Shown here one piece after another: positions 41,654 to 41,955 of a DNA stretch of 64,000 bases. The translations under genes were made by a program, and so were the position numbers. The notes beneath the pieces are model-generated. The model did not search any database. It saw nothing but the letters and a program-made list of their open reading frames with translations, and was not told the DNA's origin. Position 1 is the stretch's first letter. Each line of letters opens with the position of its first letter. Source of the DNA: Brachyspira hampsonii 30446 (lineage in GTDB: Bacteria > Spirochaetota > Brachyspiria > Brachyspirales > Brachyspiraceae); the NCBI RefSeq assembly GCF_000316195.1, contig NZ_JH994111.1:442571-506570 (forward strand), in the 5' to 3' direction.

Positions 41654-41670
41654 ATAAAGCAAATATCAGA

Positions 41671-41851
41671 AGGAGAATAAAGATGAATGCATCATCTATT
41701 AATTGTATGAATGCTGTTTTTTATGATATGAAAAAAAATACAGCATCTGCATCTAATTTTTATAAACAAAATAAATCTTCAAAAACTATTTTTTTCTTAA
41801 ACATTCTCCTCTCTATTCTTGTCAATATCCTGTAATATTACAATCTTTTTT
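41671..41851 (+). promoter_or_regulatory. Candidate attenuator: anti-SD pairing and weak terminator hairpin
   Basis: AGGAGAAT at the leader ribosome site (41671-41678) is exactly complementary to ATTCTCCT (41803-41810), which forms codons Ile41-Leu42-Leu43. A weak hairpin (TGT, bulge, AATAT / ATATTACA, 41820-41842) around the leader stop is followed by six T (41846-41851). The first could let a stalled ribosome alter initiation; the second could act as an attenuator terminator. Both are inferred. Confidence 0.45.
41683..41835 (+). CDS. Probable ilv leader peptide (attenuator)
   Basis: AGAAGGAG (41668-41675) precedes an ATG at 41683 by seven bases. It opens a 50-residue frame whose last 15 residues are IFFLNILLSILVNIL: five Leu, four Ile and one Val. 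The codons there include CTC, CTC, CTG, ATC and GTC, which are scarce in this AT-rich genome, the usual mark of a leader peptide sensing charged tRNA. It ends about 120 bases before ilvB, the first gene of Ile/Val/Leu synthesis. Possible attenuation signals overlap it (listed separately). Confidence 0.75.
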   Translation: MNASSINCMNAVFYDMKKNTASASNFYKQNKSSKTIFFLNILLSILVNIL

Positions 41852-41955
41852 ATTTAAAATACATTATTTAATTTAATACATTTAAAAATAAAATTTCTAT
41901 AAGTAGAAATACTAATAAGAAAAGTAAAATGCTATAAAACATAAGGAGTTATTTA

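Follow-up and report, generated by a model that had tools for sequence, protein, structure and literature searches.

A conserved branched-chain amino acid leader peptide before ilvB in Brachyspira, a probable regulatory element with no recognisable intrinsic terminator

Leader peptides of branched-chain amino acid operons

Leader peptides rich in branched-chain amino acids (BCAA) are known or have been proposed before ilvB in enterobacteria and actinobacteria (PMC10272879, PMC1262725), and one has been shown before the ilv genes of Listeria, in Rli60 (PMC5864092). In the spirochaete Leptospira, the ilvB motif comprises an upstream open reading frame (uORF) rich in BCAA and Thr, which was reported with a structural model and proposed to be an attenuator (PMC10272879). 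Leaders without a terminator and the pairing of Leu codons with a Shine-Dalgarno (SD) sequence have separate precedents in Actinobacteria (PMC1262725). No description of leader-peptide attenuation in Brachyspira was found in the open-access literature, subscription papers lying outside the search. The element presented here is a 50-codon open reading frame (ORF) before ilvB in a stretch of 64,000 nucleotides from Brachyspira hampsonii 30446 (contig NZ_JH994111.1, positions 442,571 to 506,570), referred to below as the window; the source genome (G000) measures 3.04 Mb. This ORF is probably a translated regulatory leader gene of the ilvL type, in which ribosome stalling would sense BCAA without an intrinsic terminator and the output would be exerted through Rho or translation control.

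The leader of the Brachyspira ilv-leu operon

The leader and its signals lie immediately before the first gene of the operon:

41626-41653, + strand: predicted sigma-70-type promoter, TTGCAA-16-TATAAT, a consensus match overlapped by the conserved TATTGCAATATTA
41668-41678, + strand: leader SD AGAAGGAGAAT, which includes AGAAGGAG at 41668-41675
41683-41835, + strand: leader peptide ORF of 50 codons, MNASSINCMNAVFYDMKKNTASASNFYKQNKSSKTIFFLNILLSILVNIL and stop, with ATG at 41683 and stop codon at 41833-41835
41803-41832, + strand: control codons ATT CTC CTC TCT ATT CTT GTC AAT ATC CTG, enriched in rare codons
41943-41948, + strand: ilvB SD, AAGGAG
41956-43629, + strand: ilvB, acetolactate synthase large subunit (TIGR00118, 670 bits, above cut-off)

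The original prediction had reported a promoter, AGAAGGAG and a 50-codon frame with a BCAA-rich end before an ilv-leu operon, and re-reading of the sequence found each of them in its place. The last 15 residues of the leader, IFFLNILLSILVNIL, comprise five Leu, four Ile and one Val. NCBIfam matches were obtained for all seven genes of the operon, in the order ilvB-ilvN-ilvC-leuA-leuC-leuD-leuB (41956-49735), with ilvB first. Such an end is exceptional in the window: among 27 ORFs of 15-70 codons with an SD and an ATG on both strands, the leader alone carries at least 10 Ile, Leu or Val in the 15 C-terminal residues. When the intergenic region was resampled 20000 times with a first-order Markov model, a comparable ORF arose three times (chance 0.00015 in one genome), and never when at least four of the rare codons were also demanded.

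Transcription is predicted to start near 41660. Consensus-type promoters are no more frequent in the region than expected by chance (6 found against 9.1), and the promoter is to be read as a consensus match only; its elements recur in the main and pilosicoli groups and its position is kept across most of the genus.

The near-palindrome TATTGCAATATTA (41620-41636; upstream regions L003-L024) overlaps the -35 element of the ilv promoter in most of the genus and may be an operator, but its eight distinct sites in the genome give no hint of an amino-acid regulon. A search with TATTGCAATATT as a regulon operator led to its rejection: it has only eight distinct sites in the genome, whose surrounding sequence bears no sign of such a regulon.

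Conservation and codon choice

The ilvB gene was located in 25 of the 26 genomes of the genus, and the 24 loci with complete upstream DNA formed the conservation set. Every one of them carries a short SD-preceded ORF (24-52 codons) ending in (N)ILLSIL..IL-stop or a near variant, and every leader SD is of the GGAGAA type, one being GGGGAA. Loss of the Ile/Leu run or of the start signals in relatives was named as an outcome fatal to the original prediction; both are kept at all 24 loci. The N-terminal part varies freely in sequence and length and is mostly gone in pilosicoli-type genomes, where 24 codons remain (MKSFFKHFNQTNISIILLSLIIIL and stop). This free change, together with a pN/pS of 0.36 for the last 12 codons (main group) and of 0.63 for the N-terminal part of one leader length class, locates the selective constraint at the BCAA end.

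Codon choice points to the same end. The codons CTC, CTG, ATC and GTC, said to be scarce elsewhere in the window, indeed make up 1.5-2.9% of their codon families in the 44 window genes that served as reference. For Leu, CTC rises from 1.9% in genes to 40% in leaders and CTG from 1.5% to 19%; Val GTC rises from 2.5% to 36% and Ile ATC from 2.9% to 22%, whereas Ile ATA falls from 66% to 8%. The genome encodes tRNA-Leu with anticodons CAA, TAA, TAG and GAG. From the tRNA set and these counts it follows that leaders avoid the common TTA and ATA in favour of codons read by tRNA-Leu(GAG) and tRNA-Ile(GAU). According to the model of Elf and Ehrenberg, attenuation becomes more sensitive when the regulatory codons are rare (PMC1183508). 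The final Leu codon of the conserved run (41830-41832) is CTG in 24 of 24 genomes, and in 23/23 loci in one count, within an invariant block CTGT[AT]A.

Search for a terminator and leaders of related genera

A scan for hairpins followed by a U-tract recovered its positive controls, i.e. a terminator of the window at 39165-39197 (-18.9 kcal/mol) and that of L154 (-17.3 kcal/mol). Nothing comparable was found in the 24 Brachyspira leaders, in which the few matches are of -9.0 kcal/mol or weaker, lie mostly within the leader ORF and are not genus-wide. Between the leader stop and ilvB, 22 of the 24, including the leader of the window, have no U-tract hairpin stronger than -4.5 kcal/mol; L013 (-4.7) and L019 (-5.0) exceed this value, but with weak hairpins that are not shared. 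The whole leader does not fold more stably than shuffled sequences (z -0.7). An Rfam scan returned no leader, T-box or riboswitch family, only four chance-level matches to eukaryotic miRNA or snoRNA families below gathering scores. One small inverted repeat appears in the alignment of the main group:

41894-41909, + strand: TTTCTA-taag-TAGAAA

It is kept about 50 nt 5' of ilvB in that group and is followed by a TA-rich stretch with no U-tract; pilosicoli-type genomes and the two most diverged genomes lack it. In its proposed working the element resembles an attenuation leader, but it falls short of a classical attenuator, which requires an intrinsic terminator. The proposal of a BCAA leader for a spirochaete ilv-leu operon is strongly supported, the peptide being conserved at 24 of 24 loci and classical attenuators occurring in another genus of the family. 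Attenuation of the enterobacterial type is unsupported in its usual form, since the 24 leaders offer no credible intrinsic terminator between the leader and ilvB.

Within the same GTDB family, two genomes of this other genus carry what look, from their sequences, like textbook attenuators, each a BCAA leader with a strong terminator. In G073 (L154, MQSLLVIIIIAILVAF...), a BCAA leader MQSLLVIIIIAILVAFYSVTQREA is followed by the terminator AAAGAGCAAGTTCCTTTTTAGGGCTTGCTCTTTTTT before ilvB. In G065 (L175), a GTG-started leader (...TIIINIIIGLSI...) precedes the hairpin AAAAGAGCAAAATCTTCGGGTTTTGCTCTTTTTTT before ilvD-ilvB; this hairpin was recognised by eye and was not listed by the simple terminator scan. 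The parsimonious reading of these sequences is that the leader peptide would predate the genus Brachyspira, in which the terminator would have been lost or replaced. When more distant spirochaete genomes were scanned simply for an SD plus an ORF, no convincing leader before ilvB emerged, although such a scan could have missed one.

The genome G146, from yet another genus of this family, has an Ile-rich ORF (MLFKIKKNVSLKKEIINIILDIILKIILQSKIIQ...; L147:1388-1510) in the interval from ilvD to ilvB. This ORF extends out of frame across the start of ilvB, an arrangement suggestive of a translation-coupled variant.

Pairing of the control codons with the leader SD

The segment AGGAGAAT of the leader SD (41671-41678) is complementary to ATTCTCCT (41803-41810) in the control codons, CTC-CTC included. 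In duplex energy with the control region, the leader SD stands at the 3rd percentile (median) of the SDs of window genes; the ilvB SD is unremarkable (median 58th percentile), except in the pilosicoli-type clade (6th). Folding predicts the pairing of leader SD and control codons in most species. The two Leu codons before Ser are CTC rather than CTT in a ratio of 33:0, against 15:17 at the remaining Leu positions among the last 16 codons (Fisher 3e-7), and the bias persists when the set is thinned to 14 species (18:0 against 10:9, p 0.001), although, the sequences being related, the Fisher values overstate independence. Because tRNA-Leu(GAG) should read both codons, tRNA choice alone would not explain CTC over CTT. 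Overall, pairing of the control codons with the leader SD is likely but unproven.

Proposed mechanism

It is highly probable that the leader responds to BCAA. A ribosome would load on the leader once the SD, which lies close to the 5' end of the mRNA, has emerged. A shortage of charged Leu-, Ile- or Val-tRNA would make it stall on the rare C-terminal CTC, CTG, ATC or GTC codons; under ample supply, it would complete the leader and depart. The vacant control region, C-rich and G-poor, could then fold onto the leader's own SD and shut out new ribosomes, leaving some 300 nt of leader mRNA ribosome-free and most likely subject to Rho-dependent termination before ilvB. With a ribosome stalled on it, the control region would be covered and transcription could continue.

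Since no intrinsic terminator was detected, two outputs remain, Rho-dependent termination or regulation of ilvB translation or of mRNA stability. The former is slightly favoured, given that in most species the complementarity of the ilvB SD is nothing special; it is a plausible output that we hold tentatively, and a translational or mRNA-stability output is possible. A rho gene is present in the genome, and the excess of C over G in the leader reaches 15 over 80 nt, a value attained by 0.06% of sense windows. More speculatively, a terminator-based ilv attenuator may have turned terminator-less in Brachyspira, with control codons doubling as an anti-SD for the leader's own start, so that sensing, leader shut-off and operon switch would reside in one 30-nt segment.

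Several observations weigh against this proposal of a stalling sensor. RNAalifold over the 24 leaders found no consensus structure, and so no mutually exclusive antiterminator. The helix between leader SD and control codons is conserved at 92.5% but its covariation is no greater than in shuffles (143/500), and synonymous permutation within each leader gives similar SD-pairing energies, the difference not being significant. The C-over-G excess, found in most genomes, is only slight in the two that have diverged most. Simple codon sensing explains neither the Ser nor the CTG, both of which are invariant. The ilvD gene of Brachyspira, at a separate locus, has no leader of this kind in the five genomes examined. 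Overall, the ORF, its conservation and codon bias, the lack of a detectable terminator, the SD complementarity and the rho gene are observed, whereas translation of the leader, stalling, the direction of the response and the Rho step are inferred from sequence.

At the ilvD loci (L173:1-650, L186-L190), a promoter-like segment CTTGATTTTTTATCATTCTRCTAATARAATG is conserved in most of the five genomes; in the genome of the window, about 300 N stand just 5' of ilvD.

Alternative explanations

The alternative that survives best, although rather unlikely, is translational attenuation, in which the Leu codons of the leader (CUCCU) would act as an anti-SD masking the ilvB SD, either directly or through a switch that involves the leader SD, until a stalled ribosome frees ilvB translation. 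In L010-L012, L019 and L021, folding pairs the ilvB SD with the Leu codons and leaves it freer under a ribosome, and in the pilosicoli-type clade the complementarity of the ilvB SD is unusually high (-10.1 kcal/mol, top 6%). A precedent exists in the actinobacterial LEU element, where a Leu-codon run pairs with the leuA SD (PMC1262725). However, outside the pilosicoli-type clade the complementarity of the ilvB SD does not exceed that of an average gene SD, as its median percentile indicates, and its predicted release in the sequence of the window is small (0.33 to 0.48).

Nascent peptides are sensed in the exit tunnel in TnaC-like systems. The LLS-(I/L)-..-IL-stop end could likewise be an arrest peptide, sensed in the tunnel together with free Leu or Ile or with termination instead of through codon starvation. 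In the leader alignment neither the Ser, which is not branched-chain, nor the last Leu varies, and the last codons adjoin the stop. Nevertheless, peptide sensing does not need a bias towards rare synonymous codons, and the residues between the motif halves vary (I, L, V, N), which makes this explanation improbable.

Classical transcription attenuation with a terminator overlooked by the scan is more doubtful still: another genus of the family has the classical form and the window has an intrinsic terminator of its own (39165-39197), but 22 of 24 leaders have no U-tract hairpin beyond -4.5 kcal/mol where the controls reach -17 to -19. A small hydrophobic protein acting by itself, or a chance ORF, agrees with the hydrophobic C-terminus but is scarcely credible given the position at the operon head, the conservation confined to the BCAA end, the codon bias, the 24-codon version that keeps the same end and the low chance expectation for a single genome.

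Comparison with known systems

If the stalling sensor proposed here is real, Brachyspira possesses a genus-wide amino-acid sensor, and the contrast between terminator and terminator-less leaders within one family makes it a testable question how the output step of an attenuator is lost or exchanged for another. It would not be the first ilv leader of a spirochaete, since BCAA-rich uORFs before ilvB have already been proposed in Leptospira (PMC10272879). The Leptospira ilvB motif is likewise a spirochaete uORF, about 70 nt 5' of ilvB, and a predicted attenuator; by its description, it is set apart by another peptide, with at least three consecutive Val codons, and by its restriction to Leptospira (PMC10272879). 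Classical ilv and leu attenuators, such as Listeria Rli60 (PMC5864092) and the Corynebacterium ilvB-II motif (PMC10272879), share with the Brachyspira leader a run of BCAA codons and a short ORF, with an SD before it, at the start of the ilv mRNA, whose 5' end is predicted here, but they rely on a terminator/antiterminator pair that was not found in Brachyspira. The Cys leader peptides of Mycobacterium cys operons are alike in having regulatory codons beside the stop, no terminator hairpin and a proposed role for Rho, and differ in their amino acid, cysteine instead of BCAA, their operon and their phylum (PMC1262725). The LEU element of actinobacterial leuA also has a Leu-codon run complementary to an SD, but there the run pairs with the biosynthetic gene's SD, in a structure that also has a pseudoknot (PMC1262725), whereas in Brachyspira the partner would mainly be the SD of the leader itself, unusual complementarity of the Leu codons to the SD of the downstream gene being confined to the pilosicoli-type clade.
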